Assembly (NCBI GenBank): GCA_028554645.1
Contig: JAQOOI010000042.1
Span: forward strand, 83,754 to 147,753
Reading direction: 5' to 3'
DNA length: 64,000 nucleotides
Source of the DNA: Omphalotus guepiniiformis
Taxonomy: Eukaryota > Basidiomycota > Agaricomycetes > Agaricales > Omphalotaceae
Shown here: positions 7,285-48,393 of the stretch, piece by piece
Numbering within the stretch: position 1 is the stretch's first letter
How the letters are laid out: each line of letters begins with the position of its first letter
Notes under the pieces: generated by a model
Seen by the model: only the letters and a program-made list of their open reading frames with translations
Told to the model about the DNA's origin: nothing
Database searches by the model: none
Program-made: the position numbers and the translations under genes

Positions 7285-9087
7285 TGTCGCGACTAAAAGC
7301 GGTCTAGGCTTGAAATCATGCAGATTGAGAAAGATTTTGGTTGTTCAAACATTGGAAACTGAACAATGAGAACTAGAGTTCACCCAGACTGCTAGTTGAA
7401 ACATGAGAACACACTCAGTTACTCAAGCCTGAGTGTAGAGTTAGCTATAGTACATGATATGGTACCTAGCAACTGTGACCAATGGGATCATGGAGAGAGA
7501 TACTAGTTTTGCCTCTCACTTGATATTGGAGTACCAATGTTCCATGCTAAGTTGAGTTGGTCAGACCCACCCTCTAAAGACTAGAGACTCTCATGAGTGT
7601 TGTTTGATTGTAATCCAAGGGAATGATGGAAGTTACAATTCAATCTGAGAAACATCTAAGTCCACTGGACTATCTAACTCCAGCTGGTCTTGCTAACTCA
7701 GGTTGGCTGTAAAGACTGAATGCTGAGAGTGCAGACAAGCTTGTATTGCTCTGACCAGAGAAATATGTTGTACATTTGGTACTATGCTTAGAATGGTGTT
7801 ACAACTTGTGAACCACCATTGTCTGTAGGCTGAAGAGGAAAAATCCTCTAAGTCATTTCTGAAGAATGGAGTTAGATGCTCAAGTTATCTTACCACGGAA
7901 CTAGATGTTGATTCTGGAGTATCCCTCTGAAATGTAACATCTAACTGAGTGATACCCTGAACCCAGACACCCAAATAGGGAAGAAGAAACGATTATTGGG
8001 ACATAATACTGTCCATAGCTTGTTGCTAGAACCAGCTAAAAGGAGAAGTACCTCCTGGAGACAAATCAGATGCAAGATCTGGCCAGATAGACACCTGTGC
8101 TACTGTACAGCTTGTGGATGATAGTAACAACGGAGTAGGGTCTAGATGACCTCTGAAACGAAGAAATAACCACTGGATATGCTAGGAACCTCACCAGCAT
8201 CCCCCAGTTAGGAAAATCAAAAGAGTTGCAAATTTCAAAATCATAAAAGATATTGTCATATGGCACCATTCTGGACTGATATTGCGTGCTGTACACCCTG
8301 GTTAGATACCCTGGACTTGATTGCCAAGCCACTATATGGACAAAGCGATTTATATAACAATTTTTATACCCAAGATACCTATACATGACAGTATCTAACT
8401 GAAAAATACCTACAAAAATACCAAAAAAGACACCAATCCCTGCTCAATTAGTCTTTCTGTTATCTATTCTATTTACTCTGCTCAGATTCCCTTACATTTT
8501 CGAGATTTACTATATTTATTCTCTGACCTGTATATAAGAACTACCTACTTGTAGATATTTTTCCTTAAGTTAGGACTGCCTAGGCTCACTACCAAAGCAG
8601 AACTTCTTCTAGACGAAATTTGCCTGGCTCTTAGGAGTTCAGTTATAGAGAAATATACCAGTTGTGCAAACTTCTGTAAAGTCCCTTGTGGCAAACCTTG
8701 AGAGAGATACTGAAACTGTTGCTGTCCCTGCTGTTCTGTCTGTGCTGTTCTGCCTGCTGAAACTGTTGCTGCTACTGTTCTGATTGATACTGTCACTGTT
8801 TGGACCATTGGATCGAGTTGCCCACTCTGATTATTGCCCTGAACCATCCCCCTGAACCCCTGAGAAACTAGTTGCCCTCAGTCTTGAACCTGTGTTTTTG
8901 AGTTACCCTGTCACTTATACCCTGTTCAGAGCGGACTGCAGACACTTGCTAGCTCAGTATTGAGTTCGATTGTCGAGTTTAACTGTGCGGAACCTTTGAC
9001 AACGCCAGCCACACCTCCACAAACCCCCTAGAATTGAGTTAGAGGTTGTTTCTTGAGACTCCCTCTCAGTCTAATTCTTGCACATTA
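7285..9087 (+). repeat. 5' LTR of the inner element (1803 bp)
   Basis: The stretch is directly repeated at 21936-23735. It begins TGTCGC, and the shared sequence runs to TTGCACATTA(T). Differences from the 3' copy that I noticed are 7291 (G/A), 7523 (A/G), 8968 (G/A) and a 3-bp indel near 7731. It carries a TATA-type box at 8531 and two exact copies of the dispersed 9-mer (8301, 8391). Short ORFs within it, repeated identically in the other LTR, are not genes. The exact 3' edge could be a few bases earlier (…CACA). Confidence 0.93.
8531..8538 (+). promoter_or_regulatory. TATA-box candidate in 5' LTR
   Basis: TATATAAG lies about 555 bp before the LTR end and would set a U3/R border shortly downstream, producing the genomic RNA. 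The same octamer is at 23179-23186 in the 3' LTR. Confidence 0.5.
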
Positions 9088-9089
9088 TC

Positions 9090-9108
9090 TGGAGCCCACC
9101 GCGAGGGG
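9090..9108 (+). other. Candidate primer-binding site of the inner element
   Basis: TGGAGCCCACCGCGAGGGG begins two bases after the LTR. It starts with TGG, the complement of a tRNA 3' CCA. Which tRNA it matches cannot be decided here; complementarity to a tRNA from the same genome would confirm it. Confidence 0.5.
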
Positions 9109-9599
9109 TGGCTTTAGACTTGATATTTGAACCCTTCTGTGCTATTTGCACGCGTCTGGAATCTATCTGGACTACTCCCCTGCTGGAACTTTGTTCTGTT
9201 CTGCAGTTAGCAACTACATCTTTATAGAAGTTGTTGCAAGAAAAACATAGCTATATACTTCGAGTTTGCTTTGTCAAAATTAGCAGCTCAAGGAAAAGCA
9301 CCCACCCTAGACAAACTAGAAATTCTGTGAGAGCTGGAACAGAAGAGTTACCTCTGAACCAGTTACCCAGAAGGAAAAGTTCAAAAGGAAAGGAGAAAGA
9401 AGTGTCACCTGAACCTGAATCTAGTCCACTTTCGTCTCTATCATCCCTTAGTTCTATTCCTGAAAGGAATCTTCCAGAGTTTGCTGAACTTTCAGCTAGA
9501 TACAAGAAAAATAAGAGGAAATTTCTTAATAGCCCTCAATTCTTTTCCTTGACTCATAAGAGAATACCTGTGAGGATTGTAAAAGATAAAAGAAACAAC

Positions 9600-11179
9600 A
9601 TGTCTACCACTGGTGAACAAGCTAATCCTGGAGAAGGTACTCAAGGGCAAGGTCCTACCGAGAATCTAACTCCACGGAGCAAGATACTATCCTTGGGAAT
9701 TGCACCTGACATTCAGATACCTGCCCCAGCAATCCTAGAGTTGCAAAATGAGAAATTACCGAAAGTTTTGAAGCATGCACCCATATTTGACAAGAGACAT
9801 CCATCTGAATTAGTTGCATGGTTGGCAGAGTTAGAGAATATCTTTGTCTCCACTGGAACTAAGACTGATGCTGCAAAGGTCATGTTGGCTCTCAGATATA
9901 TGGAGTTCCATACTAAAGCAGAGTTTCAACGGCTTGAAGCAGTCAGAAATTTAGATTGGCTTGCATTTAAGGAGGCTTTGATGAAAACTTTCCTGAATCT
10001 GCAGACAGAGGTCTGGGATCAAGACAAAAGCTTTATGCTATTGTAGAAGAATATAAACTCATTGTGCTTGGTGCTATTCAGAAACTGATGGCATTTAAGA
10101 GAGAGTATGAGATTGAATATGAGAAACTGTCCTCTGGTGCTACACCTGTAGTATCTAACTCAGAAGCTGTTGCTGGTTTCTTGAGTGCATTGGATGAACC
10201 TTTCAGAAGAAAGCTTCTGGACCGTCTGGAAAACAAAGTAATCAATGGCCACATACATGTTCAGAGAGAAGATGATCCTTTTACTCTGAAAGATGTCATG
10301 TCTGAGGCTGAGAAGCTCTGTTCTGTAAAAAGAGCAGGTGGTTATAACTTTGGTTTATTCATGAATGGTCCTAGCATAGCTGAGGGTTACTCCAGAGCGC
10401 TTCCAACACCTGAACAGAGTGCTACTAGGAAATTGTATGATCCATACCAAGTAGCAACTACTGTGAAGGCAGAACCAGACCAATGGGCAATGAAGTTGTC
10501 TGCTACAGTGGATAGTCACCAGAATCAGTTTAATCAGATCAGACAAGCTCAGGAATCGAATTTGGCAGCTCTTGCAAAGCTCTCAGAGACAGTTGCTAAC
10601 TTGGCAAAAATGACCCAAGTAACATCTAGCTCCATGAGAATGAACATGAATGCTCCAATTCAAAATTCTGGGTCTGGGATGAATTCTAATGGACACAATG
10701 GTGCTCCTAGGTCGTCTCAGGTCTCCTCTGTTCATAACAATTCTCACTCTGACTCTAATTGCTACATGTGTGATGAACCTGGACATAGATCTGTGGACTG
10801 TCCCCATCAACTTAGATTTATCAGGTTGGGGTGGATGACCAAAAACAGTGCTGGTAAATGGGCATTAAAAGATGGAGTGTATTGGCCAAGAGCTGATCCT
10901 TCAGATACTCGGTCTAAGAAAGATAAGATTGAGGAAATTGCCAGAAGACATGGTTGGGACCAATCTCCCACTCATGTTGACCAGAATCTGTATGCTTTTG
11001 AAGAAGAGGATACTGCTGCAATGGCAGGCCCTTCTCAAAACAGTTCACTAGATGCTATAAACAGTCTTGTTGCGCAGTTCAGTCATGTTTGTACTACACT
11101 ACAGAATTTAGCTCCAGTTGCTAACTCGGAGAAAAAGCAGATTCTGAAGAGAGATAGTACCTCTGAGTCGAAAAACTAG
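9600..11179 (+). CDS. gag: Gag of inner element, with apparent one-base frameshift
   Basis: The first ATG of the open frame is at 9600 (MSTTGEQANPG). A capsid-like helical region follows (HPSELVAWLAELENIF). The frame stops at 10046, but the other frame continues the family sequence as PESADRGLG...KLYAIVEEYK from about 9990, so one base (probably a T in the run near 9989) seems to be missing. The nucleocapsid has a CCHC knuckle, C-X2-C-X4-H-X4-C (CYMCDEPGHRSVDC), near 10762. TAG is at 11177-11179. Codons before 9600 are open but lack ATG and are probably leader. The frameshift may be a homopolymer sequencing error, as the rest of the element is intact. Confidence 0.82.
11170..11176 (+). promoter_or_regulatory. 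Putative -1 frameshift site, gag to protease (G AAA AAC)
   Basis: The gag frame ends TCG AAA AAC TAG, so the heptamer G_AAA_AAC abuts the stop, at the place equivalent to G_GGA_AAC in the outer element. The -1 frame runs into the protease ATG at 11188. The first base breaks the strict X_XX rule, but AAA_AAC is the efficient part of known sites. Confidence 0.55.
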
Positions 11180-11187
11180 AGGTTCCA

Positions 11188-12585
11188 ATGAAGGAGTTTG
11201 GTGTAGAAGATGTATTTTCACAACATCCTTCTCACAGAGCAAGTCAAACTCCTGAGGATTTTAATCTTGCAAAGAGAAAGAAAATGGAAGTCTTGTTACC
11301 CACCTTGAAACCATCTGAAAAGGAGAAATACAGACCCCCGGCCATGAGAAAAGAACAAGTCCATTTTGAGCTACCTGTTGAATCTGACACTGAGGAGCCT
11401 GAGTCTCCCTCTGACATGGAGTTCGATACTGCACGGAGAGTATCTAACCGACCATTTGACAATATAAAGGCAATTGATAGGCCACCTATACCAAAGGGAG
11501 CGCCTGTAGGGAGCCAACATAAGTCAAAGGAAGGTGATATTACTCAGTCTAGAACTAGAGAAGGAATGAATAGTGACACAAAGAATGCTATTGTTTATAC
11601 AAAGCCTTTGCGCAAATCTGAGCCTGATTTCAAGCTTAGAAACTCATTGTTCAAACCTGGTCTTGCTGAAGAAATAGCAGACAAAATCTTTAGGTCTGAG
11701 ATAGATATTAGTAGTGGTGATCTCATTGCTATATCTCCTGCACTACAGAAAATCATGCAGAGAAAGTTGAAGAACAGTAGAGTGTATAAACGGCCTATAA
11801 AGGCATTTGTTCAAGAGGTTAGGGATGAAGATGATCCTGAGTATGGTACTCAACTTGAGGAAGATGTTACTCTGTCTAAGGCAACCTATATGGTTAATGT
11901 TGATGATATGGCCTATGAGAAGGAAGATGTGTTTATTATCTTAGATGAAGACACAGATGACCTTAAGAAAGGTTCAGTGGTTCACAAGGATGTTGTGGAT
12001 CAATATCAACGAGATATTCCTTCAGAAGAAAGGGATAAGATCATTATAGTAGCCAGTCAGACTGACAGTCTAAAGGCAATCTATCTGATAAACTACTCTG
12101 ACCAGCAAATTGAGACAGTCATTGACAGTGGCTCTCAAATTGTATCAATGGACACTAGAGTTGCAATTGGTTTAGGCCTGAGATGGGACCCTGCTACAGT
12201 AATCCATATGCAAAGTGCAAATGGGCAACTACAAGCAACAAGGGGACTAGCTAGGAATGTACCATTTACCTTTGGGGAGATTACAATCTATATGCAGATA
12301 CATGTAATAGATAAAGTGCCTTATGATGTTCTCTTGGGGAGACCATTTGATGTGTTGACAAGCAGTGTAATTAGGAACTTTGAGACTGGAGAGCAAGAAA
12401 TCACTATCACAGATCCAAACAGCGGAATGAAGTGTACAATGGGCACATATGATAGAGGTCATGGAGTAAAGGTCAAACCTGTACCCGGTGAACCGAAACT
12501 TGTCCCAGAAACACAAAAATCTTCGAGTATCCCACTCAAGCCTGAGGGGGAGACTCAAAATTTTCATCAGACCTTAATGAACTGA
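11188..12585 (+). CDS. pro: Retropepsin-type aspartic protease with long N-terminal region, inner element
   Basis: This 465-codon frame is a co-linear homologue of the protease at 590-1984. The active site is a DSG variant (VIDSGSQIVSMD, about residues 312-323) and the LLGRPFD motif lies near residues 381-387. The N-terminal 300 residues are charged, with the shared pieces AIVYTKPLRK and LFKPGLAEEIADKIF also present in the outer copy. Its ATG is eight bases after the gag stop, the same spacing as in the outer element. The end overlaps pol at the A_AAU_UUU heptamer. Expected role: maturation of Gag and Gag-Pro-Pol. Confidence 0.86.
   Translation: MKEFGVEDVFSQHPSHRASQTPEDFNLAKRKKMEVLLPTLKPSEKEKYRPPAMRKEQVHFELPVESDTEEPESPSDMEFDTARRVSNRPFDNIKAIDRPPIPKGAPVGSQHKSKEGDITQSRTREGMNSDTKNAIVYTKPLRKSEPDFKLRNSLFKPGLAEEIADKIFRSEIDISSGDLIAISPALQKIMQRKLKNSRVYKRPIKAFVQEVRDEDDPEYGTQLEEDVTLSKATYMVNVDDMAYEKEDVFIILDEDTDDLKKGSVVHKDVVDQYQRDIPSEERDKIIIVASQTDSLKAIYLINYSDQQIETVIDSGSQIVSMDTRVAIGLGLRWDPATVIHMQSANGQLQATRGLARNVPFTFGEITIYMQIHVIDKVPYDVLLGRPFDVLTSSVIRNFETGEQEITITDPNSGMKCTMGTYDRGHGVKVKPVPGEPKLVPETQKSSSIPLKPEGETQNFHQTLMN
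12558..12564 (+). promoter_or_regulatory. Putative -1 ribosomal frameshift site, protease to pol (A AAT TTT)
   Basis: The protease frame reads CAA AAT TTT CAT, giving canonical A_AAU_UUU. It is identical in heptamer and position to 1960-1966 in the outer element, 18 bases before the protease TGA. The pol frame has no ATG near its start. Confidence 0.7.
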
Positions 12586-15500
12586 TAGAAGATCAGGGAG
12601 AGGTTGCTGTTTGTATTGAGATAGATGATGATGGAAATGCTACCATTGCTGGATTTAAGCTGCCAGATGCGAAATTGTTCTCAGAACCTGAAAAGGCTGA
12701 AGCATTTGTGTTTGCAGCAGAATCCACCATAAGAGAAAAAGATAAAGGTGCTGCAGATACGGTTAGATCATATCTAAATCATTCTGTAGACTCTGAAAAG
12801 AAGCAGGTGTACTGTACCTGGCGTGAAAATCAAACTTTGGATGAAAATCTGGAGTTAGATACTCCACCAGCGCCTGTATACAATGAGGAACCAGTATCTA
12901 AGCGTCAACAAAAGAGGATTGATAAGTGTAAATCTGTTAAAGAAAAGCACAAACAATCGCCTTTTAGACCTAGATGGAGCAGAAATGCTAATGGAAACAA
13001 GTTTGCTGAGTTAGTAACTGTATTGGCTTCAAGAAAGTACAAACCAGTTGCTGTAAAAGTTAAACCTGTTAAAGCTACATTGCCTGCAGAGTTCCGAATT
13101 GAGAGAAAAATCCTAGGAAATCCGTTAAAGGATATGCCTGAGCTACCTACTCATCCACCAGAGTTCACTCCTGGGGAGAGGTATACTCAAGAAAGAAAAG
13201 AAATTATAGACAAGAATCATAATGAAGGTTTCTTATGGCCTGAAGAAATGAAGCTTGTACATCATCTCATGAAAGTCCAAGAGAAATCATTTGCATGGGA
13301 AGCATCTGAAGGTGGGACTTTTAATACAGAGTTCTTTCCGCCAGTGAAGTTTCCAGTATTGCCTCACACACCTTGGGTGGAAAGGAATATTCCTATACCT
13401 CCAGGGATCTATGATCAAGTGTGTAAGATGATCAAGGACAAGATAGATGCTGGTGTATATGAGCCTTCTAGTTCATCCTATAGATCTAAATGGTTCTGTG
13501 TCTTAAAGAAAGATGGAAAAAGCTTAAGATTAGTACACAGTTTGGAACCACTCAATAAAGTGACTATCCAACATTCAGGAATTCCTCCTGCAACTGCAGA
13601 TATAGCTAGAAGCTTTTCTGGAAGAGCATGTTTGGGATTGCTGGATATCTTTGTTGGCTATGATGAGAGACTGGTTGATGAAAGTTCAAGAGATCTTACA
13701 ACCTTCCAGACACCTTTTGGCCCACATAGATTAGTGAAGTTACCTATGGGTTGGACAAACTCTGTTCCTATCTATCATGATGATGTTACATATATCTTCA
13801 GAGATGAAATTCCACATGTAACTAAACCTTACATTGATGATGTACCAGTAAAAGGTCCAGCTACTTGTTATGAAACTCCAGATGGAGGATATGAGACTAT
13901 ACCTGAGAATTCTGGCATCAGAAGGTTTGTGTGGGAGCATCTACAGAATATGAACAGAATTGTACAGAGGATGAAACATGCTGGTGGTACTTTTGCTGGT
14001 ACCAAAGCTTTTATCTGTGTAGCTGAAGGTGATGTTGTTGGACATCATGTCAGTTATGAAGGAGAAAAACCAGTTGAACGGCTAGCTGAGGTTGTTCTGA
14101 CTTGTGATGCATCAAAATGGTCTGAAAAGAAAGATATCCGGTCATTTTTGGGCACTGCTGGTCAGATGAGAATGTTCATAAAGGATTATGCTAAGAAAGC
14201 TAGACCTTTAACAATCTTAACTGGAGATGTACCGTTTCAAATGGGTCCTGCAGAGTTAGAAGCTGTAGAAATGATTAAAGATGGGATTAGGAATGCTCCA
14301 GCACTCCGTCCTATTGACTATGGTTTAAGTTCTGGAATCACCCTTTCAGTAGATACTTCATGGATGGCAGTTGGTTTTCAATTGTACCAAACAGATCCTC
14401 TGGATCCTAAGAAGAAATACTACAATTGGATGGGTTCTATTACTTTAAATGAGAGAGAAGCAAGGTTTTCCCAACCTAAGAGAGAACTTTATGGCTTGAT
14501 GTTGGCCTTACAACAAACATACTACCAGACATATGGATGTAGGGAACTTACTGTGGAAACAGATGCAAGCTGCATTAAAGGCATGCTTGACAAACCCAGT
14601 AGTGGTCCCAATGCAACTATAAACAGGTGGATTGAAGAAATAAGGAAGTTTCACTTCACTTTAGTACACATCAAAGGTACTGAACACAAAGGACCTGATG
14701 GTTTATCAAGACCCCCTAGGGGCACCATACCAACTGAAAGAGCTGCGTCTAGAGATCCTGATTCATTTATTGATGAAGATGACGGTCTACCAGTGAAATT
14801 CAGGATGGGAGATGGTGAAACTGAGTCACCCTTTGAGTTTGAGTCCTTTAAAGATGAAATAGATACTAGAGGAGGTTATTTGCAGGATGTTGCTAAGTCA
14901 ATTGATGACTTTGAAGACGATTTGCAAGAAGCCATTGAAGAAGAATGCCATCTGAATTCCATTAGAGCATTGTTGCTAACTCAATACCGAGTATCTAACT
15001 CGGTGTTGCAGTTTGCTCAAACTCTTGTTGTGCCTGAAGGAGGTACTGAATGGACACATGAGCACCCTTACCGGGAAGATCATAGATCTGCATCTACAAA
15101 AGAGCTGGATGATCAACTTGAATTAATTAGAGACTGGTATCTGCACGGAAACCAGTATCTAACTCAATTGAGTGGGACACTCCAGAAAAAGTTCTTATCC
15201 AGAGCTATAAAGTTCTTTGTAGACAGAGATGGTCGTCTCTATAGGAGAAATGATGATACAGGAGGCCAGCATAGACTGGTTGTGCCTAAAGAGAAAAGGA
15301 TGTACATGATGCATGCTGCTCATGATCATCTGGGACATAAAGGAATGTTTGCAACAAAAGCCCTTATAGAAAAGCGTTTTTGGTGGCCAGACTTGAATGG
15401 TGATGTCAATTGGTTTGTCAAATCCTGCCAAGTCTGCCAGAACCGCAAAATGGACTTGTTGAAAATTCCTCCCACTCTTACCCACACTCCCTCTCTGTTT

Positions 15501-16640
15501 CAGAAGATTCATGTTGATGTTTTCAAAGTATCACCTGCAAGCAATGGTTGCAAAGATGTTGTACATGGCAGATGTGCACTATCATCTTGGTCTGAAGGAA
15601 GAGCCTTAAGATCTGACAATGCTAGGTCATTGGGAGAATGGTTCTTTGATGATATTATATGCAGATGGGGTTGTCCTGATGAAGTTGTAACTGATAATGC
15701 ACCCCAAATGCGAGCTATGCTTAAATGGCTAGAAGAGAAATATGGAATTAAAGGGATTAACATATCTCCTTACAATTCACAAGCCAATGGCAAGATTGAG
15801 AGAGCCCACTTTGACATTAGAACTGCCCTTGCAAAAGCTACAGGGGGAGATCTAAAAAGATGGTGGTGGTTTCTCAAGCATGTCTTCTGGGCAGATAGAA
15901 TTACAGCTAGAAAGGGACTTGGATGTTCACCATACTTCCTTGTTACTGGTGCTGAACCTATTTTACCCTTAGATATTGTTGAGTCCACTTGGTTGGTAAA
16001 ACTACCAGATAGAATTCTGACATATGAGGAACTTATTGGCTACAGAGCTCAAGCTCTAGCTAAACATAGAACCCATGTTCAAGAAATGATATCCAGGGTA
16101 GATACTACCAAGAGGGATACTTTAAGACAATATGAAGAAGAATACAGAAATGTTATCAGAGACTTTGATTTCAAACCTGGTACTTTAGTACAAGTCAGAA
16201 ATACACAAGTTGAGAAGAACTTGGACAGGAAAATGTATCCTAGATACTTGGGACCCATGATTGTAATAAGGAGAACCAAAGGGGGATCCTACATTGTGGC
16301 CCAAATGGATGGTACTGTACTCAGAGAAAAGGTTGCTGCCTTCAGAGTACTGCCCCATGTTGCTAGATATGAACCAATTAAACTGCCTGAGAACATTCAT
16401 GAACTTATAGACTTGACTAGTGAACAGCTAGAAGCCATGGTTAATGAAAACATGGAGTTAGATAGTGAACTTGAAAGGGATTATATCTTTGACAGTATTC
16501 CTCAGTTGAGAATTCCTGTTGATGATGAAGACTTAGAAGAGTTCACTGATGAAGAAGCTGCATCTGACAATGATGTAGATGAAGAAGAGCCTGATTGGGA
16601 TGCTCCAATGCAGACCAGGGCTCGCTCTTCAAAGAGATAG
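12564..16640 (+). CDS. pol: Pol polyprotein (reverse transcriptase, RNase H, integrase), inner element, intact
   Basis: One uninterrupted frame of about 1358 codons. RT has LPMGWTNSVP and the catalytic YIDDVPV box near 13830-13850. RNase H carries VDTSWMAVG and VETDAS. Integrase has the HHCC finger (HDHLGHKG ... CQVCQ, about 15326-15440), then the catalytic triad in IHVDVF, VTDNAP and NSQANGKIERAH. The C-terminal tail is very acidic and ends EEPDWDAPMQTRARS; no chromodomain is evident. The substrate-binding RT motif reads TLDIFVGYDERL instead of the usual LDL-SGYHQ, and the upstream box is LVHSLEPLNKVT, which marks a distinct lineage. Entry is by -1 frameshift from the protease. It copies element RNA to DNA and inserts it, and could supply integrase in trans to the outer family. 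Confidence 0.95.
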   Translation, partial: SSDLNELIEDQGEVAVCIEIDDDGNATIAGFKLPDAKLFSEPEKAEAFVFAAESTIREKDKGAADTVRSYLNHSVDSEKKQVYCTWRENQTLDENLELDTPPAPVYNEEPVSKRQQKRIDKCKSVKEKHKQSPFRPRWSRNANGNKFAELVTVLASRKYKPVAVKVKPVKATLPAEFRIERKILGNPLKDMPELPTHPPEFTPGERYTQERKEIIDKNHNEGFLWPEEMKLVHHLMKVQEKSFAWEASEGGTFNTEFFPPVKFPVLPHTPWVERNIPIPPGIYDQVCKMIKDKIDAGVYEPSSSSYRSKWFCVLKKDGKSLRLVHSLEPLNKVTIQHSGIPPATADIARSFSGRACLGLLDIFVGYDERLVDESSRDLTTFQTPFGPHRLVKLPMGWTNSVPIYHDDVTYIFRDEIPHVTKPYIDDVPVKGPATCYETPDGGYETIPENSGIRRFVWEHLQNMNRIVQRMKHAGGTFAGTKAFICVAEGDVVGHHVSYEGEKPVERLAEVVLTCDASKWSEKKDIRSFLGTAGQMRMFIKDYAKKARPLTILTGDVPFQMGPAELEAVEMIKDGIRNAPALRPIDYGLSSGITLSVDTSWMAVGFQLYQTDPLDPKKKYYNWMGSITLNEREARFSQPKRELYGLMLALQQTYYQTYGCRELTVETDASCIKGMLDKPSSGPNATINRWIEEIRKFHFTLVHIKGTEHKGPDGLSRPPRGTIPTERAASRDPDSFIDEDDGLPVKFRMGDGETESPFEFESFKDEIDTRGGYLQDVAKSIDDFEDDLQEAIEEECHLNSIRALLLTQYRVSNSVLQFAQTLVVPEGGTEWTHEHPYREDHRSASTKELDDQLELIRDWYLHGNQYLTQLSGTLQKKFLSRAIKFFVDRDGRLYRRNDDTGGQHRLVVPKEKRMYMMHAAHDHLGHKGMFATKALIEKRFWWPDLNGDVNWFVKSCQVCQNRKMDLLKIPPTLTHTPSLFQKIHVDVFKVSPASNGCKDVVHGRCALSSWSEGRALRSDNARSLGEWFFDDIICRWGCPDEVVTDNAPQMRAMLKWLEEKYGIKGINISPYNSQANGKIERAHFDIRTALAKATGGDLKRWWWFLKHVFWADRITARKGLGCSPYFLVTGAEPILPLDIVESTWLVKLPDRILTYEELIGYRAQALAKHRTHVQEMISRVDTTKRDTLRQYEEEYRNVIRDFDFKPGTLVQVRNTQVEKNLDRKMYPRYLGPMIVIRRTKGGSYIVAQMDGTVLREKVAAFRVLPHVARYEPIKLPENIHELIDLTSEQLEAMVNENMELDSELERDYIFDSIPQLRIPVDDEDLEEFTDEEAASDNDVDEEEPDWDAPMQTRARSSKR

Positions 16641-16855
16641 AAAGATAAAACACACTGTATTTGAAAAAGTAGCTAGTTAGATACTCGAGAGAGACTATCT
16701 AGCTCAATGAAAAATAAATAAAAGTGTAAAAAGTAGTTCTAAACTACTAAGATGAATGAAAAAGGATGTTCTAAATACTCGAGGATGTCCTATGTGATGT
16801 ACCAGTGACGTGTATACTACCTATACATTGAAACTAAGGTGCTAAAAAGTAACAT

Positions 16856-18258
16856 CTAGTTCAGTGTTAAGTCTGCAGGAGGAAATTCATGAAATGGAGC
16901 TGGGTCTGAAGCTACTGCTGGACCTGCCTGCAAGGGATCCTGAGAAGCACGATTGGCCTTCTCTTTTGCCTTCCTGAGCTGCTCCAACTTGGAATATTCC
17001 TGGTAGGCAAACCTGTACTGAGAATGGTGATACTGGATAGCATGTTGGTGAACACTGAGTTCAGTCCTCAGAAAGTTGGAAATAGAGTGAAGGACTTCTG
17101 GAGAGAAGTGGTCAAGGTCCATGAACGGAAATAAAGCCGTAATGCGATTAACTATCTCTTCTCCACTCTCCCTGAGTTTGCGCTCATCTGTAAAGCATAG
17201 AGTTAGATACTCGACGCGGTACCAGATTGAGTTAGATACTCACACTCTGTCTCTTCACTAAGGTTGACAAAGGGCTTCTCAATGCGAGGCTTCTTCTGAC
17301 TACCAGCCTTGGGAGTTTCTGGGACAGTCTCAGGCTATAGGAGCAGTAAACAGTCAGTCATGCTGTACTTATCAACTCAGAGTAAAAATAACCCTTACCA
17401 CTTTGGACTGAATTGGGTTGGCCTATATGGTCCAAAAGACGTTCAAAGTAAGTAAAAGAGATGAAATAATAAGGCTGAGAAAGGATACCTACCACTGGAG
17501 TAGTAGGTACTACTTTGTCCTTAGCAGTCTTAGCAGCTGCACTAGGGGTGTTGGTAACCTTGCCTGATTCCTTGCTGTCCTTCTTGGGAGCATGGATGGA
17601 CGCAGAAAGTCCCAGGGCTGGTCCATCAGCCATCTGAAAAATGAAAGGAAATGAAAATTAGAAATTATTCAGGCCACTATGGAGTTAGATACTCAACAGT
17701 AACGTCTCCATCGCCTGTAATAACTTCGATTTCCTCATCCTCATCATTGTCGTCATCAACAAGCTCAGGGGTTTTCGCTGGCTGCACGGAAACATGCAGT
17801 TAGTGACTCCAGGTGACGAGGATACTCGAGAAAAATGCTTACTTTGCGCTTTCTGGGTGGAAGATCCCTCTCCCTGCGCTTAACCAAGTCCTCCCTGAAG
17901 ATCTTGATATGAGCAAAAGTGTCAGGCTCAGGAATGCTTGAATATTTCTTGAGGGTGTCAGACACCAAGGAAACACCTTTGTCATATAGACCAAAGGCTT
18001 CTTCGGACTTGGCAACTGCAAAAGCAGGAAGGGACTTCTTCTATAACAGAGAGACGCAGAGTTAGATACTGGAACATGGCGGGCATCGAGTTAGATGTTA
18101 CTCACCAGATGACTAGCTAGGGCAGTGACCAACATGCCCAATAGCTCGGTATCGACGTCCTTGGCCTCCATAGCTCCAGTAGCACGAGAAATATAACGTT
18201 GAGTAGTTGCTACCCACTCAGGGCGCTCAGGCCAACCTTTGGGACCTTTTGGGGGCAT
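16856..18258 (-). CDS. Antisense gene A of the inner element (spliced, unknown, nuclear-type)
   Basis: ATG at 18258 (MPPKGPKGWPERPEW); TAG at 16856-16858. At least five short introns are needed. The product begins with a helical domain (ELLGMLVTALASHL), followed by a basic LPPRKRK patch (candidate nuclear signal), an acidic stretch (DDDNDEDEEIEVI), a lysine/alanine-rich linker, and the C-terminal PFVNLSEETE block with a helical tail. This order and the NLSEET block match gene A of the outer element, so the gene has been kept through family divergence. Introns in an antisense gene imply it is transcribed on its own from a promoter in the A/B spacer and is spliced out only from minus-strand RNA, leaving the genomic RNA intact. 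Four exact dispersed 9-mers (17202, 17231, 17684, 18061) lie inside its span. Function unknown. Confidence 0.7.
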
Positions 18259-19089
18259 AGTAATGAAGTATGAGAAGTATAAGAATTGGGAAGGATGTAA
18301 AAGGGTAGAACCAAGTATCTTATGGTGCTGAATCGTCGTCAACGATTTGGGGAGCCCTTTATACTAGTTCTATACCTAACTTCTCGATTTGGACATTGAA
18401 AAACCTTGGACCAGGTTACTAAGTCAAAATTTCTTGACTAGGCCTGCCCATGCAATTCAACGGGGACATTGAAATTTATTTTGCTTTGGGGGAGAGAGTA
18501 AAAACAAGTTAACAATGACTCTAGAGCGAAATTTTTGATTTTTCAAAGATTAAGATCTAGAGATCTGGAACAGCTTTGACCGTTTGAGGGCTTAGCCGGC
18601 TTAAGATTGCCGAGTTCAACTCTGTCTTCACGCGGAAACCTTGGGCAAAATAAATCTTGACTTATCCATAATAAATAAAGATACTTACAGAATTTTATTT
18701 GAATATAACCTGTAATCATGGAGTCTCCCTCTGAAGCTCGACTTAGATACTGTATCTGGAGAGGGATACTCGGACTTTTATAACATTTCAACTTAAAGTT
18801 CACACTTAAAGAAGAAAACAAGATAAATGAAATATATTTGAGCTCTAGAAGCTCATTGTTATGACTATGGAAGACACTCTACATGTACTACTATCTGAAT
18901 AGAATACAGTGAGTGTCTGAAATACAAGATATATATATAAGGGCAACTCAGTGTGTTAAACACTTGAGTCACCCCGCACGAGATGCAAACAGTTTACTGA
19001 TAAAGAAACGACCAGTCCAACGCTGCGTAGGAATCACCGTAATGCTGAGGAAGATATGCTAGAAGGGCTGGAGGAACCTCGTGTGCGAG
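18259..19089. other. Spacer between antisense genes A and B, inner element
   Basis: No gene is seen in about 830 bp. This is the likely promoter region of gene A and the 3' region of gene B. It contains an internal polypurine-tract-like site (18484-18496) and a degenerate cluster of the dispersed motif near 18742 (TTAGATACTGTATCTGG). Confidence 0.55.
18484..18496 (+). other. Internal polypurine-tract-like site, inner element
   Basis: CTTTGGGGGAGAG, in the context GAAATTTATTTTGCTTTGGGGGAGAG, is nearly identical to the terminal tract at 21923-21935 and to the outer element's internal site at 6504. The position between genes A and B is conserved. Confidence 0.58.
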
Positions 19090-21635
19090 TCACTCTGAAG
19101 GGATATAATCCTCTTCAGGTAGTGGACTGCTCGCGGGAGCGAGAACCTTCTCAGTGTCCAATTCGTCCGCATCATCCTCGACTTCGGAACCGTTGTGAGA
19201 AGCACCAGTCGCTGGACGCGGCTCTTCGGTGTTCTTAGCAATAGATTCGGCTCGAAATGTAGAGGGATGAGATGGGCCAGCCTCGGCTTTATCCTCCTCG
19301 GGATCGACTACGATGAAGTTGCCGGCGCTGTTCTTCGAGATGTAACTGGCACGAGACACGATGTTGACGTCCCAACCAAGCGCGGTACAGAGAAGTCGCA
19401 TCTGCTCGTCAGTGTATTCGAAGGACGGGTCACCAGTCTTAAGCTGATGGAGTACGAGTCGAGGATCCCTGCACGATGCCTTGATATGCGCCTGACGATC
19501 GATGATTCCAGCGTGAAGTTGTTCCATGGCCTGCATCTGCGCGACAACCCCTTCCTGCATCTTCTCGTAGGAGTCGATAAGAAGTTGGAGTTGACCCGCC
19601 TCTTGTGCAATGACTAGATAAACGAGAAATTCAGTTAGAAATTGAATTGAAACCAAGAAAAATGAGAATAACTCACCAGCGCTACTACTACGAGCTAAGG
19701 TGTATGAAAGGCAGCGCATCTGATCGGTACCTTCGAGGCTGTATGTCCAACTGCACGCATGATTGTCCTTGGCGCAGGTACTACATCTCCAGTCAAACGA
19801 GTTCTCCTTGATTTGAGGGCGACACTTGCGACCGTCGGAATGGGTACTGCCGACGCAAGCTGCGCAGATGGAATCACCGAAGAACTGCAAAAAGTATCAG
19901 CTAAAAGATGCTGCAATAAGAAAAATGAGATACTTACGCGGGTCGAACGAGCGATTAATAGAAACGAGCTGTTGAAGTGTAACGGGACGACCGTAAGGCC
20001 ACCCGAAGACAGTACGGTCTAGACAAATCGTTAGTTCTAAAAACTATAAGTTAAGAAAACGAAATGACGTACCAGGAACGTCGGTATATTCCTCCTTGTT
20101 CCGGTGTTGAAAGGTGCGACCATCGACACGCTGGATAAAGCAAGGAAAGGTTAGTAGACCATACTGAGAAATGAAAAAGAAGACCTACTTGAAGATTAGG
20201 GGGTTCGTCATGAACGCCGGGAGCCTTCAGCACGGATGTAGTTGAGAAACCTGCGCGATTCGGCCAAAGGGAAGCAGAAAGGTCGACTTTGGACTCCTTG
20301 GCACCCTTCGACCCCTCATTCTTCTTTTTGGGCTTGTCTTCCTCATCCTCTACTTCCTCCTCGTCGCTGGATTCAGGGAGAGTCGTCTTGGTCGAAGTAG
20401 AAGCGGCCTTGGACCGAGTTTGACGCGCCGGCAGTTCCTCCACAGGTTCCTCCACGTGAATAGATTGAGTCTTCGGGCGAGGCTTCACCGTTTGCTTACC
20501 CTTGCCCTGTAAAGCCCATGAGAAATGAATACACCTAAGAAAGAGAAAATGAAACTCACCTTAGAAGATTTGGGAGCCTCAGGCTTCTTGGTCAATGAGG
20601 TCCGGGTTTTCTTTCTTGGAGGCTCGGAATCAGGAACCTCCGCGTTGTCGTCATCAGAGTCATCGGTGAAAACGGCAGAGTCCTCGGAATCCAGAGATTT
20701 GCGTTTCGACTAGAAAAATGAACAAGTCAGGAGGGATCCACTGCGAGAAATTCAAAAACTTACCACAGATCGACCCGGCATCGGTGTCAGGGCAGGTTTA
20801 GGTTTTGTCTTTGTAGCCGGAGCTGTCTTCTTGGTGGAACGAGTGGATTTGGCAGCGGAAGCAATGGGTTCGATAGGAGAAAGGCGGATCTCGTCATCTT
20901 CTTCGTCGTCTTCGTGGTCTTCGAGCTGAGGGCCTAGGAGAGACTTGGGAAAAGGCGGTAAAGGCTCCCAGAGATTCCGCAGCTAAAAGAGAAATGAGAC
21001 TTTGAATGTCAAAAGAAATAGACCCCTGAACTAGAAACTCACTGTAAACTTCTTGTGCAAATCGTCATACCGAGCCCTGGAAGGACACCAAGGTGGCAGG
21101 ACGAAAGTCCCCGGCCTCTGTTGATGCAACCAGAGCGCGAGGTTCGAAGCGGCAAGGAAGGTTCCAGTGAAGTAGTCGGGCAAATGGGTCTCGTTCTTCT
21201 GACAACGATTAAAAACCAACGCAACGTGAGCCTATACAGCGTAAACACGCGTTAGTAAAGGCATAAATAAGAAATGAAAATAAAACCTACAAGAGCGAAT
21301 TTTGCCTCCTCAAAAGTAGCGGACATCAGTTTGAGCCGGAGACCTGCACCATAATGTTCAAATGATTGGTCGCGGAGTCGACGATCGAAGTCCCCAAGCT
21401 TAGAGCAGACGGTGGAAAGGGCCTGGTAGTTGTTGGCCTGCATAGTGTGTACACGCTAAGTAGGAAGTGAGAAAAGAGAAGGAAAGGGAGACTCCATGGA
21501 ACGGGGATCTCAACTATATATGACACGACCGAAACGGTCCGTGAGAGAAAGAAGAATGAGTTGACTCACGAACTCAATGGAGGCATCGCTTCCTAGAGAA
21601 ATGGAGTTAGCAAGTTCCCTAGAAAAGTCGTCCAT
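19090..21635 (-). CDS. Antisense gene B of the inner element (spliced, six-cysteine zinc-type motif)
   Basis: ATG at 21635 (MDDFSRELANS); exon 1 joins through a GTGAGT...TTAG intron to the exon with MQANNYQALS. TGA at 19090-19092. At least seven exons, roughly 640 residues. In order: a helical N-terminus; a disordered, strongly charged middle with PPRKKTR (nuclear-type signal) and several acidic runs (DSDDDNAEV, SSDEEEVEDEEDK); a cysteine motif C-X2-C-X10-C-X12-C-X2-C-X6-C (about 19750-19875); a glutamine-rich helical segment (YEKMQEGVVAQMQAM); and a C-terminal block around LLCTALGWDVN. The cysteine motif and the C-terminal block recur in the outer gene B. The layout suggests a nuclear DNA- or chromatin-binding factor; the function is not shown. 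I do not recognise a named family. Confidence 0.72.
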
Positions 21636-21922
21636 AGGGAGACTCAGTGAGATGTGAAGAACGAAAGGGGTCTTCCATATTTGGCTGAACTTTGACGGAT
21701 GCAGACATCGGGTTTCTCCAAATTGAGCATTGCCGAGGCATGCCGAGTGAAAAACGTACTGATCGGTCTTTCAATCGAGAAGTCTGCCTAACGGCAGTTC
21801 ACTGTGACAAGGTGTCAACGTGATAGTAAAGCAATTGACTTGACTTCTGTGACTAACTACCTGGAAAAGTAGTATCTAACTCGATATTGGCCATCATGGA
21901 CGATCGAGGTCGATCTTATTTT

Positions 21923-21935
21923 ACTTTGGGGGAGA
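21923..21935 (+). other. Polypurine tract of the inner element
   Basis: ACTTTGGGGGAGA lies immediately before the 3' LTR (TGTCGC), the position required to prime plus-strand DNA synthesis. Confidence 0.85.
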
Positions 21936-23735
21936 TGTCGCAACTAAAAGCGGTCTAGGCTTGAAATCATGCAGATTGAGAAAGATTTTGGTTGTTCAAA
22001 CATTGGAAACTGAACAATGAGAACTAGAGTTCACCCAGACTGCTAGTTGAAACATGAGAACACACTCAGTTACTCAAGCCTGAGTGTAGAGTTAGCTATA
22101 GTACATGATATGGTACCTAGCAACTGTGACCAATGGGATCATGGAGAGAGATACTAGTTTTGCCTCTCACTTGGTATTGGAGTACCAATGTTCCATGCTA
22201 AGTTGAGTTGGTCAGACCCACCCTCTAAAGACTAGAGACTCTCATGAGTGTTGTTTGATTGTAATCCAAGGGAATGATGGAAGTTACAATTCAATCTGAG
22301 AAACATCTAAGTCCACTGGACTATCTAACTCCAGCTGGTCTTGCTAACTCAGGTTGGCTGTAAAGACTGAATGCTGAGAGTGACAAGCTTGTATTGCTCT
22401 GACCAGAGAAATATGTTGTACATTTGGTACTATGCTTAGAATGGTGTTACAACTTGTGAACCACCATTGTCTGTAGGCTGAAGAGGAAAAATCCTCTAAG
22501 TCATTTCTGAAGAATGGAGTTAGATGCTCAAGTTATCTTACCACGGAACTAGATGTTGATTCTGGAGTATCCCTCTGAAATGTAACATCTAACTGAGTGA
22601 TACCCTGAACCCAGACACCCAAATAGGGAAGAAGAAACGATTATTGGGACATAATACTGTCCATAGCTTGTTGCTAGAACCAGCTAAAAGGAGAAGTACC
22701 TCCTGGAGACAAATCAGATGCAAGATCTGGCCAGATAGACACCTGTGCTACTGTACAGCTTGTGGATGATAGTAACAACGGAGTAGGGTCTAGATGACCT
22801 CTGAAACGAAGAAATAACCACTGGATATGCTAGGAACCTCACCAGCATCCCCCAGTTAGGAAAATCAAAAGAGTTGCAAATTTCAAAATCATAAAAGATA
22901 TTGTCATATGGCACCATTCTGGACTGATATTGCGTGCTGTACACCCTGGTTAGATACCCTGGACTTGATTGCCAAGCCACTATATGGACAAAGCGATTTA
23001 TATAACAATTTTTATACCCAAGATACCTATACATGACAGTATCTAACTGAAAAATACCTACAAAAATACCAAAAAAGACACCAATCCCTGCTCAATTAGT
23101 CTTTCTGTTATCTATTCTATTTACTCTGCTCAGATTCCCTTACATTTTCGAGATTTACTATATTTATTCTCTGACCTGTATATAAGAACTACCTACTTGT
23201 AGATATTTTTCCTTAAGTTAGGACTGCCTAGGCTCACTACCAAAGCAGAACTTCTTCTAGACGAAATTTGCCTGGCTCTTAGGAGTTCAGTTATAGAGAA
23301 ATATACCAGTTGTGCAAACTTCTGTAAAGTCCCTTGTGGCAAACCTTGAGAGAGATACTGAAACTGTTGCTGTCCCTGCTGTTCTGTCTGTGCTGTTCTG
23401 CCTGCTGAAACTGTTGCTGCTACTGTTCTGATTGATACTGTCACTGTTTGGACCATTGGATCGAGTTGCCCACTCTGATTATTGCCCTGAACCATCCCCC
23501 TGAACCCCTGAGAAACTAGTTGCCCTCAGTCTTGAACCTGTGTTTTTGAGTTACCCTGTCACTTATACCCTGTTCAGAGCGGACTGCAGACACTTGCTAG
23601 CTCAGTATTGAGTTCAATTGTCGAGTTTAACTGTGCGGAACCTTTGACAACGCCAGCCACACCTCCACAAACCCCCTAGAATTGAGTTAGAGGTTGTTTC
23701 TTGAGACTCCCTCTCAGTCTAATTCTTGCACATTA
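21936..23735 (+). repeat. 3' LTR of the inner element (1800 bp)
   Basis: A direct repeat of 7285-9087 with the few differences listed there. It carries the TATA-type octamer (23179) and two exact dispersed 9-mers (22949, 23039). It is followed by TTGG and then the resumed gene B of the outer element. Confidence 0.93.
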
Positions 23736-23739
23736 TTGG
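23736..23739. repeat. Target site duplication of inner element, right copy (TTGG)
   Basis: Counterpart of TCGG at 7281-7284 with one C-to-T difference. Confidence 0.55.
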
Positions 23740-25382
23740 TTTGAATCAATGAACTCAAACGTTTGGCGGACTCGCGAGTTTGATTTGATTGTCGAACGAG
23801 GTTGTCGAACTCAGCGTGAAGTTGTAGTAAATTCGAAATGTGTGTGTTGATCGCTAATAAAACGAAATTAGAAGGAATGAAAAAGACTAAAAATGGACTA
23901 CGTACCAGCAGGGTGTTGACGTCCTTCCTGGAAAGCAAGGTCGCGCACCTTTGTGATACCATCGAGCGAATATTGAAAGGAACAAGGTCGTTTCCATTTC
24001 TCGCAGACGCTACATTTGTTGTCCTCTCCGCGCCATACACATGGCTGACTGAGATTGCCGGCTAGGCATCCAGCGCAGATGGGGTTCAAGCTGTAACCTT
24101 GGAGAGACCGATTGACGGTGACGAGGTCCTTGAACTTGTGTCGTAGGCCGGTAGGATCAACGAAATTGAAGGGGATCATAGCTGCGGAGGTGGCGAGGCG
24201 TGAATCTCTGATAAAGGATTTCTTGCTGCCGGTTGGCTAAAGAAAACAGTTAAGAAACAAAAAGAATAAAGATATAATGTGGAACTTACTGCATTGGTAG
24301 CGTATGTAATTTCGTAGGGGTTGGCAGTAACAGTTTCGACTACCTCGTCGTCTTCGCCAGCGCTAACCTCAACCGTTTTCTAGAAATGGGATTAGTTAGT
24401 AAACATAATGTTAATAAAAGGATTGGATAAAGAGACCTACCTCGGGTTTGACCTTTTTGGGACGACCTCGACCACGTGAAGCACCAGAACGAGTCGATGT
24501 AGGAATCGAAGTCGTCGACCGAGTTTGAATCTGCGACCGAAGTGCTGGGGAAGGAACACGCTTCACCTTTTTCTTTGGCGGAGACTCCAACTCGTCCTCT
24601 TCCTCTTCTTCGTCGTCCAAATCGTCATCGTCGTCAGAAGATTCTTCAACGGGAGGCGACTCTTTGAGTTTTTTTGGAGAAGCTTTGGACGGAAGTTCAG
24701 GAAGCGCCGAGACATTGAATTCCGGAAGGGAGGAGAAGTCAAAGGAGTTCCCGCTTTGAAAACGATAGGATTCAACGGGAGGGAGTTGACGAGATAAAGG
24801 AAAAGGCTGAAAAAGAGTCGTAAGTAACGATACAAAAAGAAGGATATGAGAAAAACAAACCTTGAACTTGAGCGCTTTCAGCTCACAAAGCATTGCCTTG
24901 GGAATTACCATCGGTTCGAGAGTTTCGAAGTCAGAAAGGCCGGTATCTTGTAGACGCCAAGCTAGACGAGAGATTGACCACCAAAAACATCTTGCATAGT
25001 AGGGAAAATCGTCGTCAGAAGTCCAGTCTTCATAGAATGTGTGCTAGAAAGTAATAAAGACCTTAGTAAGGGAATGATTTGAATAAAACATAATGAATCT
25101 TACCCAGGTGGTATAAGCGTTATCCAAGGGCATGATTAGATGAGCAACTCGGAAGCTAGGATTGTCGTCTTTTTCGAAGAGGCGAATACAAACCTCTGAG
25201 ACATGGCGCTGGATCGCAACCATAGCCTCTTGGAGCGCGATGTGCTGCACACAAGGAAGAGAAACCGATGAAAAGATGGGGGGGGCTTTCTTACGAGGAG
25301 CTATAGTGGACGTCCCGGCGGAAGTCGTTCACCCAGAGTCGCGTTTCTTCTTGTTACCTGAGCCGTCTTTCTTGGGAGCCAT
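23740..25382 (-). pseudogene. Antisense gene B of outer element, 5' half (six-cysteine motif, AT-hook)
   Basis: Starts at ATG 25382 (MAPKKDGSGNKKKRDSG) and runs through several exons to IQT at the inner-element junction; the 3' half is at 7007-7284. The product has a basic N-terminus, a globular helical region (HIALQEAMVAIQRHV...), an acidic run (SSDDDDDLDDEEEEE), PPKKKVKRV as a nuclear-type signal, an AT-hook RGRGRPKK (near 24460), then C-X2-C-X8-C-X8-C-X2-C-X6-C (about 23990-24085). The cysteine order equals that of the inner gene B. The AT-hook indicates minor-groove DNA binding, a property known for that motif. Broken by insertion; apart from that I see no stop codon within the proposed exons. 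An additional upstream exon is possible. Confidence 0.75.
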
Positions 25383-25948
25383 TGGAGCAAACGAAGTAGG
25401 GAGAGAATACAACCAACAAAGAAGAAGGATAGAACGATTGAAAGCAGTAGAATGAAGGTCAGAAGGGAGAGCACCAAGTTCCTGCTCGTTCTGTAAATTC
25501 TGAGAGTCGGAGGGATAGGAATCATATGAAGAAAGAAAAAACGAAGTTGAACCCATATATAATGAAGTGACGAACGTGAAAAGCAAAAAGATGTGAATAA
25601 AAAGATATGACAATGTATACGGTAATAATGACTCACCTATGATGGGAAACAGATCGTGTTGAGGGCCGATATTCCAGAAAAACTTTAAAATGAGCGAGTT
25701 AGGAAAACACACTTCTGAGTTCGTGAGGCCAAAGCTGTTTGTATTCAGTTCTGGCAGTTCGGCAAAAAGTCACATGATCATGCCATAGTGGCTTTCGATC
25801 CGGTGTTTGAATAATGGAATATTGACCGGATGAATAATGTTGAAGGAAAATTTTATTGAACTCTTAACAACTGCTGTACTATAACATAAAGTCAGTAGAT
25901 TGGCTGAAGAATTGACCGGGGACGGTCAAGATTTTAGTTTGGGGGAGA
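25383..25948. other. Promoter-side spacer of gene B and polypurine tract, outer element
   Basis: No gene is supported. The polypurine tract AGTTTGGGGGAGA (25936-25948) abuts the 3' LTR. Three CCGG sites lie close together (25800, 25826, 25916), continuing into the LTR. Confidence 0.6.
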
Positions 25949-27328: not shown

Positions 27329-27543
27329 ACGGTGATTTGTTAAAGTTACGCGTTAGTTCGTTTGAGTGGTGTGTAGCATAGAGTTTATCTGTGCCACGTC
27401 GGTTTTGACTGTGTCTCCGAGCTCCTCTTACAACAACCTTATTCGCTTCACAGAGTTTGTTGGTCCCCCAAAACCCCACGAACTTAAAAGTCTTTGTGTG
27501 TTGTGTGTGTGTTTTGAGTGCTTGATAGATTCATTCGAGTTAG

Positions 27544-47952: not shown

Positions 47953-48393
47953 ATGTCGAAGAACCCGTTGACAGCTTTGAGCCTTGAACACCTAGTTACT
48001 CCTGCCGCGAATAATACGAGTCCTCGCGAGACAGAAAAAACGCCTGAGGCACGACACGCCACGTCGTCGACGTTGTTAACTTGGAATGAAATCGCATATG
48101 CATGCGTCGCCCACCTCATTCACGACCAGACGCCTGAAGCGAGACCAGACCCCGGAGAGAATTCTCTTCAGAGTCCTCGCGAGACGGAAAAAACGCATGA
48201 GCCAAAGCAGTCTTCTGGTCACACCGCGTCTTCGACGTCGTTAACTTGGAACGAAATCGCGTATACACGCCTCGCCCACCTCATTCTCGACCATACGTGC
48301 GAACCGAGAGCAAACCCCGGAGAGAATCCTATTCACAACGATGAGACGGAACGTCGAGTCGTGGGTGCTAGTAGCATATCTGAAACACGATAA
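47953..48393 (+). CDS. Small ORF with two 51-residue tandem repeats
   Basis: A 146-codon frame from ATG 47953 (MSKNPLTALSLEH) to TAA. Two units of 153 bp begin near 48018 and 48171; each encodes SPRETEKT...TLLTWNEIAYACVAHLIHDQ-like sequence ending PGEN. Both units keep the frame and the helical WNEIAY...AHLI segment, although bases differ, which hints at selection on protein. No known domain. It lies just downstream of the Helitron protein and before a decayed copy of its protease domain, so it may be Helitron cargo. Confidence 0.5.
   Translation: MSKNPLTALSLEHLVTPAANNTSPRETEKTPEARHATSSTLLTWNEIAYACVAHLIHDQTPEARPDPGENSLQSPRETEKTHEPKQSSGHTASSTSLTWNEIAYTRLAHLILDHTCEPRANPGENPIHNDETERRVVGASSISETR

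Follow-up and report, generated by a model that had tools for sequence, protein, structure and literature searches.

Short sequence words that are dispersed over a transposable element and recognized by a protein of that same element are known from Arabidopsis, where the VANDAL transposons, a group of Mutator-like DNA transposons, encode VANC anti-silencing proteins. VANC21 has a 9-base motif, YAGTATTAY, that occurs element-wide at non-coding sites which arose in tandem repeats, and the targets of VANC6 have a different motif, AGTTGTCC or AGTTGTAC (PMC5735166). Here we describe a possibly comparable situation in a Ty3/Gypsy long terminal repeat (LTR) retrotransposon that lies in a stretch of 64,000 nucleotides (the window) of contig JAQOOI010000042.1 of the basidiomycete Omphalotus guepiniiformis. 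The element belongs to a family that we call F1, carries many copies of a 9-mer, GTTAGATAC, and is related to three further families of the same genome, F2, F3 and F4.

The likeness to the VANC system is that F1, F2 and F3 possess short over-represented motifs which differ between related families, and that in F1–F4 the mobility genes are accompanied by extra genes (A and B), for which we propose a role in binding. The differences are that we deal with a fungal LTR retrotransposon, that A and B have no recognized relationship to VANC (a statement made without direct sequence comparison), and that the sites often lie in coding DNA and are scattered singly, with close pairs in just two places (intron 5 of gene A in F1 and the LTR of F2). 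The system thus appears VANC-like in outline, whereas membership is not established, since homology is not shown and the sites do not share the non-coding, tandem-repeat character of those of VANC21. In fungal DNA transposons with a TET/JBP dioxygenase, found in basidiomycetes and other fungi, element genes are likewise proposed to counter silencing by cytosine methylation, but by means of an enzyme rather than a DNA-binding reader of tags (PMC12730594). LTR retrotransposons of plants and rotifers also carry additional open reading frames (ORFs) beyond gag-pol, the papers on plants making frequent mention of antisense, but a dispersed family word is not mentioned in the accessible passages (PMC7264820, PMC11963269, PMC5408684).

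A literature search among open-licence papers revealed no dispersed family-specific motif or code in an LTR retrotransposon. Outside this group of elements, L5-like mycobacteriophages have stoperators, short sites scattered in large numbers, with words specific to the phage group, that are bound by one self-encoded repressor. The dispersed group-specific words and the orientation bias found in F1 are similar, but the phages have a known repressor where we have a candidate protein, and the bias is missing for the other words. Multiple short sites for one protein are also formed by the TnpA sites of maize En/Spm and the Su(Hw) sites of Drosophila gypsy, but these are clustered near the ends or in the leader and are not family-specific versions spread across coding sequence.

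Our interpretation is that GTTAGATAC and its counterparts in the sister families are tags, that is, family-specific DNA words for which the element itself would encode a DNA-binding reader, most likely as a means against methylation-linked silencing. Both the binding and its effect are deduced from sequence, and we put the probability of this interpretation at roughly 0.47.

Family-specific words in F1, F2 and F3

The earlier note on this DNA had reported at least 15 copies of the 9-mer in the inner element, on both strands and in LTRs, coding regions and spacers, far above chance expectation, and this observation is confirmed. The window contains 15 exact copies (8 plus, 7 minus), all within 8301–23047, where dinucleotide shuffling predicts 0.35 and none of 100 shuffles reached 15. 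Since two sites of the LTR recur in the second LTR and thus account for four of the 15 copies, 13 positions are independent, against 0.11 expected from an order-2 Markov model in the non-redundant element (7285–21935; Bonferroni P 5e-18), and GTTAGATAC is the most over-represented 9-mer of F1. A strand-specific order-3 model predicts 0.19 and 0.04 copies where 7 and 6 are observed. The copies are distributed over the LTR (2), gag (1), protease (1), pol (3), the pol–A spacer (1), the introns of A (4) and the spacer between B and the 3' LTR (1), and those in coding DNA are translated in different frames, as had been noted, namely as VSN (10151, 11440, 14991), LDT (12854) and YLT (15155).

Across the 13 sites the core is preceded by G (9) and A (11) and followed by T (12) and C (8), so that GAGTTAGATACTC is a fair wider consensus. 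Past about 13 bases the flanks are unrelated among copies, which means that these are not fragments of a single duplicated segment, and spread by segment duplication was rejected on this ground. The proposal of short inverted arms, like those of a dimeric protein site, holds for the arms themselves (nine matches to GAGTNNNNNACTC in F1 against none for the reversed control), but since the TAGAT core is asymmetric a dimer is at most suggested. At window position 7871 (LTR position 587) the young F1 copy has GAGTTAGATGCTC where an older F1 copy has GAGTTAGATACTC, and two solo LTRs hold an exact site mapping to this stretch, which looks like loss or gain of a site inside the family.

For comparison, a single copy stands for each of F2, F3 and F4, as the window copy does for F1, and older copies, likewise one per family, were added for F1, F2 and F3 (F1x, F2x, F3x); three Gypsy elements outside F1–F4 (C1–C3) and 33 kb of host DNA served as controls. 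With GTTAGATAC masked, nothing in F1 rose above control level (best raw P 1e-7, where C1 reaches 4e-8). The vocabularies of the families differ (Table 1): F1 and F2 share GTTAGATAC, F2 adds SCAGATK, and F3 lacks both and has GGGTCTAG, GCTMGAS and TTCGNCG. Strong excess is confined to the family to which a word belongs, although mild excess elsewhere exists (e.g. TTCGNCG in F2), and in the three ordinary Gypsy elements and the 33 kb of host DNA the words are near expectation. The 9-mer is therefore one of several family-specific vocabularies. In F2, SCAGATK extends to about TSCAGATKSA, and the AGAT that it has in common with GTTAGATAC invites the idea of one drifting binding specificity.

Table 1 Observed/expected counts of the words under a Markov model
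Word	F1	F2	F3	F4	C1	C2	C3	Host, 33 kb
GTTAGATAC	13/0.1	9/0.1	0	0	0	0	0	0
SCAGATK	14/11.5	65/13.5	5/7.1	8/7.5	4/2.9	4/3.5	4/3.6	27/19.6
GGGTCTAG	1/0.4	1/0.3	13/0.3	0	0	0	0	0
GCTMGAS	3/4.8	7/3.6	47/7.8	5/2.9	5/3.4	0/0.9	0/0.9	14/14.7
TTCGNCG	1/1.3	6/1.5	34/6.6	5/2.1	3/4.6	3/3.1	1/2.4	18/18.1

For F2 and F3 the degenerate words are the best of roughly 24,000–30,000 candidates in the same sequences, and their P values are consequently not those of a prior hypothesis. That the words are a mutational or compositional by-product, or copies of a single segment, is the explanation to which we give the least credence. Composition can yield over-represented words, and WATAAAG in F4 (30:1 by strand) is probably such a case; on the other hand, 13 copies of the 9-mer with unrelated flanks stand against 0.11 expected, the words of F1–F3 are in excess on either strand taken by itself, against order-2 and order-3 models made for that strand, and neither the order-3 models nor codon shuffles produce such an excess. 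For F1–F3, chance and composition were rejected with order-2 and order-3 Markov models, their strand-specific versions, codon shuffles, and the Gypsy and host controls. Candidates for F4 were discarded: CTTTATW (31 against 7.8; reached by one of 1000 codon shuffles) is nearly one-stranded, with WATAAAG 30 times on one strand and CTTTATW once, and a word so distributed is not accepted as a DNA tag; GTTGTGAT (10 against 0.58) consists mostly of LTR duplicates. In the F4 copy WATAAAG may be a feature at the RNA level or of composition.

A DNA-binding factor of the host (a transcription factor, insulator or centromere protein) could recognize sites that the elements have gathered, and elements do borrow host sites, as gypsy does with those of Su(Hw). 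This explanation is quite improbable in our view, because a factor common to all families does not predict different words in three related families of one genome, and because ordinary Gypsy elements lack such words and the sites are not confined to LTRs but extend into coding DNA.

The 42.5-Mb genome that was searched contains 1137 matches to GTTAGATAC (581 + 556), against 312 (163 + 149) for a reversed control, and 327 to GAGTTAGATACTC (174 + 153), against none for the reversed pattern. Among 100 of these 327 places that were listed, 66 lie inside F1 or F2 intervals, and the 13 that were read from the remaining 34 all proved to be F1/F2-related DNA. Equal frequency across the genome and absence from other copies of the family, two outcomes that would have spoken against the earlier note, were thus not found, F1x having 13 sites and the sister family F2 nine. 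A search with the reverse transcriptase (RT), in which 90 of 404 candidates were scored, gave 14 sequences at 98–100% identity (F1), 36 at 96–97% (F2), two at 93%, 31 at 81–83% (F3) and seven at 77–78%, the last being six F4 copies and one that is, by its DNA, a decayed F3 copy. Dispersed family-specific sites could also label own copies as targets or non-targets, and thereby steer or forbid integration of the own family; the F1 insertion of the window, however, sits in an F4 element that lacks the motif, and we regard such a role as very unlikely.

Constraint on the DNA and loss of CpG

Accumulation of GTTAGATAC at the level of DNA, beyond protein and codon constraint, is supported by several observations. 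When synonymous codons were shuffled 1000 times within the gag, protease and pol frames (in F1 the second gag frame only), no shuffle reached the five coding copies of GTTAGATAC in F1 (mean 0.22), the 36 coding SCAGATK sites of F2 (mean 8.5), or the coding copies of GGGTCTAG (7, mean 0.39), GCTMGAS (26, mean 6.1) and TTCGNCG (13, mean 2.7) in F3. Twelve of the 13 GTTAGATAC sites of F1 align with F2, with 12 mismatches where 24.1 are expected, and five are exact against 1.92 predicted from local 9-mers (P 0.027). Starting from F2, both aligned sites of the 5' part are exact in F1 (P 0.052), as are three of four in the A/B part (0.29 expected, P 0.0012), these sites overlapping with the five that are exact from the F1 side. 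The occurrence on both strands, in coding and non-coding DNA and with unrelated flanks points in the same direction, and the claim of DNA-level accumulation made at the outset stands.

The 36 coding SCAGATK sites of F2 are shared by only six of 33 aligned positions in F1, two of 34 in F3 and three of 33 in F4. Within these sites F1 and F2 differ by 24 nonsynonymous and 16 synonymous codon changes, where the respective totals are 268 and 461 (Fisher P 0.0023), a test that is possibly biased as the sites were chosen as motifs in F2. F2 thus seems to have acquired tags at the expense of amino acids.

The body of gene B has no tag in F1, whereas in F2 it holds two SCAGATK against 63 elsewhere (P 1.8e-4 if judged from length and 0.06 from the Markov expectation), and in F3 no GGGTCTAG, five GCTMGAS (1.98 expected) and five TTCGNCG (2.82 expected). 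Little or no tag excess in B is therefore in the same direction in F1–F3, but remains a trend because the single tests range from significant to not significant. In the ratio of observed to expected CpG, F1, F2 and F4 are sharply divided between gag-pol and B. For F1, F2, F3 and F4, respectively, it amounts to 0.18, 0.20, 0.67 and 0.13 in gag-pol (9093–16640 in the window), 0.22, 0.26, 0.94 and 0.79 in the LTR, 0.47, 0.52, 0.88 and 1.05 in the A region, and 1.03, 1.07, 1.15 and 1.31 in B (18901–21640 in the window), compared to 0.89–1.02 in C1–C3 and 0.95 in host DNA. The gag-pol parts of F1, F2 and F4 show a TpG excess of 1.25–1.40, as deamination of methyl-CpG would leave. If the younger copy is taken as ancestral, 22–37% of CpG has changed in F3x and F2x, against 2–10% of other C contexts, and 11% against 1–2% in F1x; with the older copy as ancestral, F3 shows no such excess and F1 and F2 a weaker one. 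Taken together, the CpG loss, the TpG excess and the decay in older copies suggest that CpG methylation probably acted on this lineage, with gag-pol long subject to it and B not.

In the older F3x, whose stretch is somewhat shorter, the CpG-bearing words have decayed from F3 (TCGGCGA from 14 to 1, GCTCGAG from 21 to 6), while GGGTCTAG stays (13 to 10).

The relation between CpG and tags would also fit a protein that draws silencing to tagged DNA. An own protein that binds the dispersed sites, shuts the family off and so limits its copy number, as a form of self-repression or immunity, can thus be envisaged. The tagged stretches of F1 and F2 (LTR, gag-pol and partly A) are CpG-poor and the untagged B is CpG-normal, as if tags attract silencing; moreover, GTTAGATAC is biased in orientation with respect to transcription (F1 9 of 10, P 0.02; F2 6 of 6, partly the same sites), and F1, F1x and F2 share an exact site close to where gene B starts. 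The other words have no such bias (SCAGATK 30:22, GGGTCTAG 5:5), the bias in gene A may stem from use as branch points, and F3 is tagged but just mildly CpG-depleted. We consider self-repression unlikely, although it is the strongest of the competing explanations.

Genes A and B and the architecture of the element

The part of F1 that lies 3' of pol comprises about 5 kb and carries the two antisense genes, A and B (Table 2). Neither matches a Pfam family above the cut-off. Relatives of A, found by tblastn, are present in F3 (35–42% in three stretches) and F2, and in F4 as a single match of 58 residues at 36% identity, which lies in the window's own F4 copy; B has relatives in F3, with 25.5% identity along some 160 residues, and in F4, with 31–32% in two short stretches. 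B was fully modelled in F2, where it has 658 residues, whereas in the window copy seven introns were found and exons 8 and 9 do not join in phase (about 19885–19925). Identity between F1 and F2 is 42–53% in stretches of B and 90.8% in pol, from which it follows that B evolves fast. A search of a large database for protein relatives of B gave 214 candidates, none of which qualified at E 0.001.

Six cysteines of B are common to F1–F4 in the alignment, and the exon that follows them is probably coil-like, judged by eye. The standard Zn2Cys6 (GAL4-type) spacing is CX2CX6CX5-12CX2CX6-8C, and that of B in F1, CX2CX10CX12CX2CX6C, has a longer second spacing. Among PDB sequences, AlcR, an atypical Zn2Cys6 regulator (E 1), and the zinc fingers of DPF3 (E 0.14) were matched, neither significantly. 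In view of the longer spacing and the weak Zn_clus and AlcR matches, B as a standard Zn2Cys6 protein is not established.

Gene A raises the question of whether the motif is an RNA or splicing signal. On the coding strand of A every copy of the region reads GTATCTAAC, which contains the fungal branch point CTAAC and resembles the donor GTGAGTATCT, and copies lie in introns 1, 3 and 5 (twice in 5). Yet copies also occur on both strands in open gag-pol frames and in LTRs, and the words of F3 are unlike splice signals, which leaves splicing as a highly improbable general explanation, though one that may further constrain the copies within gene A. In introns 1 and 5 (18105–18041 and 17243–17188) the motif overlaps a donor-like GTGAGTATCT and a branch-point-like CTAAC, and some of the intron copies may double as splicing signals.

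Table 2 Features of the F1 element in window coordinates
Feature	Position	Strand	Tag sites and remarks
Inner Ty3/Gypsy LTR retrotransposon, family F1	7285..23739	+	Inside F4-family element
5' LTR	7285..9092	+	Sites 8301, 8391
gag	9231..11179	+	Site 10151; split into ORFs 9231-10046 and 10064-11179
Protease ORF	11188..12585	+	Site 11440 (kept in F2)
RT-RNase H-integrase ORF	12675..16640	+	Sites 12854, 14991, 15155
Tag site, pol-gene A spacer	16676..16684	+	
Antisense gene A, six modelled exons	16856..18258	-	Sites 17202, 17231 (intron 5), 17684 (intron 3), 18061 (intron 1)
Antisense gene B, many exons	19090..21635	-	Body without tag site; from gene model and relatives
B exon with six-cysteine cluster	19681..19884	-	C-X2-C-X10-C-X12-C-X2-C-X6-C; from sequence and F1-F4 alignment
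Tag site, gene B start-3' LTR spacer	21872..21880	-	Exact in F1x and F2
3' LTR	21936..23739	+	Sites 22949, 23039

The LTRs of F1 are near-identical direct repeats (99.6%), each of about 1.8 kb, and the Pfam domains above cut-offs are, in order, zf-CCHC, Asp_protease_2, RT_RNaseH and Integrase_H2C2. The gag gene, split at 10046–10064 in the window copy, is a single frame of 637 codons in F2, and long open pol frames are present in other F1 copies and in F2, unlike the defects in gag and B of the window copy. Inspection of the flanks gave an imperfect 4-base candidate for a target-site duplication, the LTR ends not being fixed to the base. Named relatives of pol are from mushrooms, including Lentinula, Moniliophthora, Mycena and Armillaria (among 120 of 1514 matches listed); in contigs of viruses and prokaryotes no relative was confirmed. 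The element that encloses F1 in the window belongs to F4, with 98.6% identity along 4662 bases. An F4-type LTR (25949–27332) is followed by an inverted copy (28187–29457), with arms that are 94–97% complementary, apparently a rearranged or second inserted F4 LTR. The host DNA has a 116-base direct repeat (48055–48170 and 48220–48335, 84% identical).

A candidate self-encoded reader and its implications

In the interpretation that we favour, a sequence-specific protein of the element, most likely B with its six-cysteine cluster and probable coil, possibly together with A, would bind the dispersed tags in LTRs, gag-pol and gene A and thereby mark the DNA as belonging to its own family. The bound protein would most likely counter methylation-linked silencing of the tagged stretch, so that methylated copies could still be expressed and would yield progeny as long as B stays on. 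Protein and sites would drift together, and sister families would end up with different words. An anti-silencing role is preferred since an active lineage that has been methylated for long needs a means of expression, which an own protein would supply. A more specific version, in which the words are a self-identity code over the element's own coding sequence that is read by the antisense-encoded protein of the family, with B near-untagged and unmethylated and words placed at tens of positions per family and gained fast enough to change amino acids, is more doubtful. Such a code would let methylated copies stay productive and would spare sister families in one genome from cross-control.

Several findings weigh against this interpretation. 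F4 has relatives of A and B as well as the CpG split, but yielded no acceptable word, and its A region is CpG-normal (1.05), so that the match between CpG-poor and tagged domains does not hold for all families; F3 has words and yet shows mild CpG depletion (0.67 in gag-pol). Simple prevention of methylation should leave the tagged stretch keeping its CpG rather than losing it. The two coding GTTAGATAC copies of F2 were reached by 11 of 1000 codon shuffles, and conservation in F1x (12 of 13 sites exact, 10.4 expected, P 0.23) is not significant. As for the protein, Zn_clus matches B at E 0.34 in one of the four family members, with no curated domain match, and the window copy, with its out-of-phase junction, may not make intact B.

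If the interpretation is correct, it would mean that fungal LTR retrotransposons, independently of the plant DNA transposon and by means of other proteins, evolved a VANC-like self-recognition through short dispersed words, and it would give a handle on the survival under CpG methylation of retrotransposons that lack a demethylase. The families would then offer natural protein–word pairs within one genome for studying how DNA-binding specificity changes, and possibly new programmable, family-specific chromatin tools. The case also serves as a warning that the coding sequence of a retrotransposon can hold a second code at the level of DNA.

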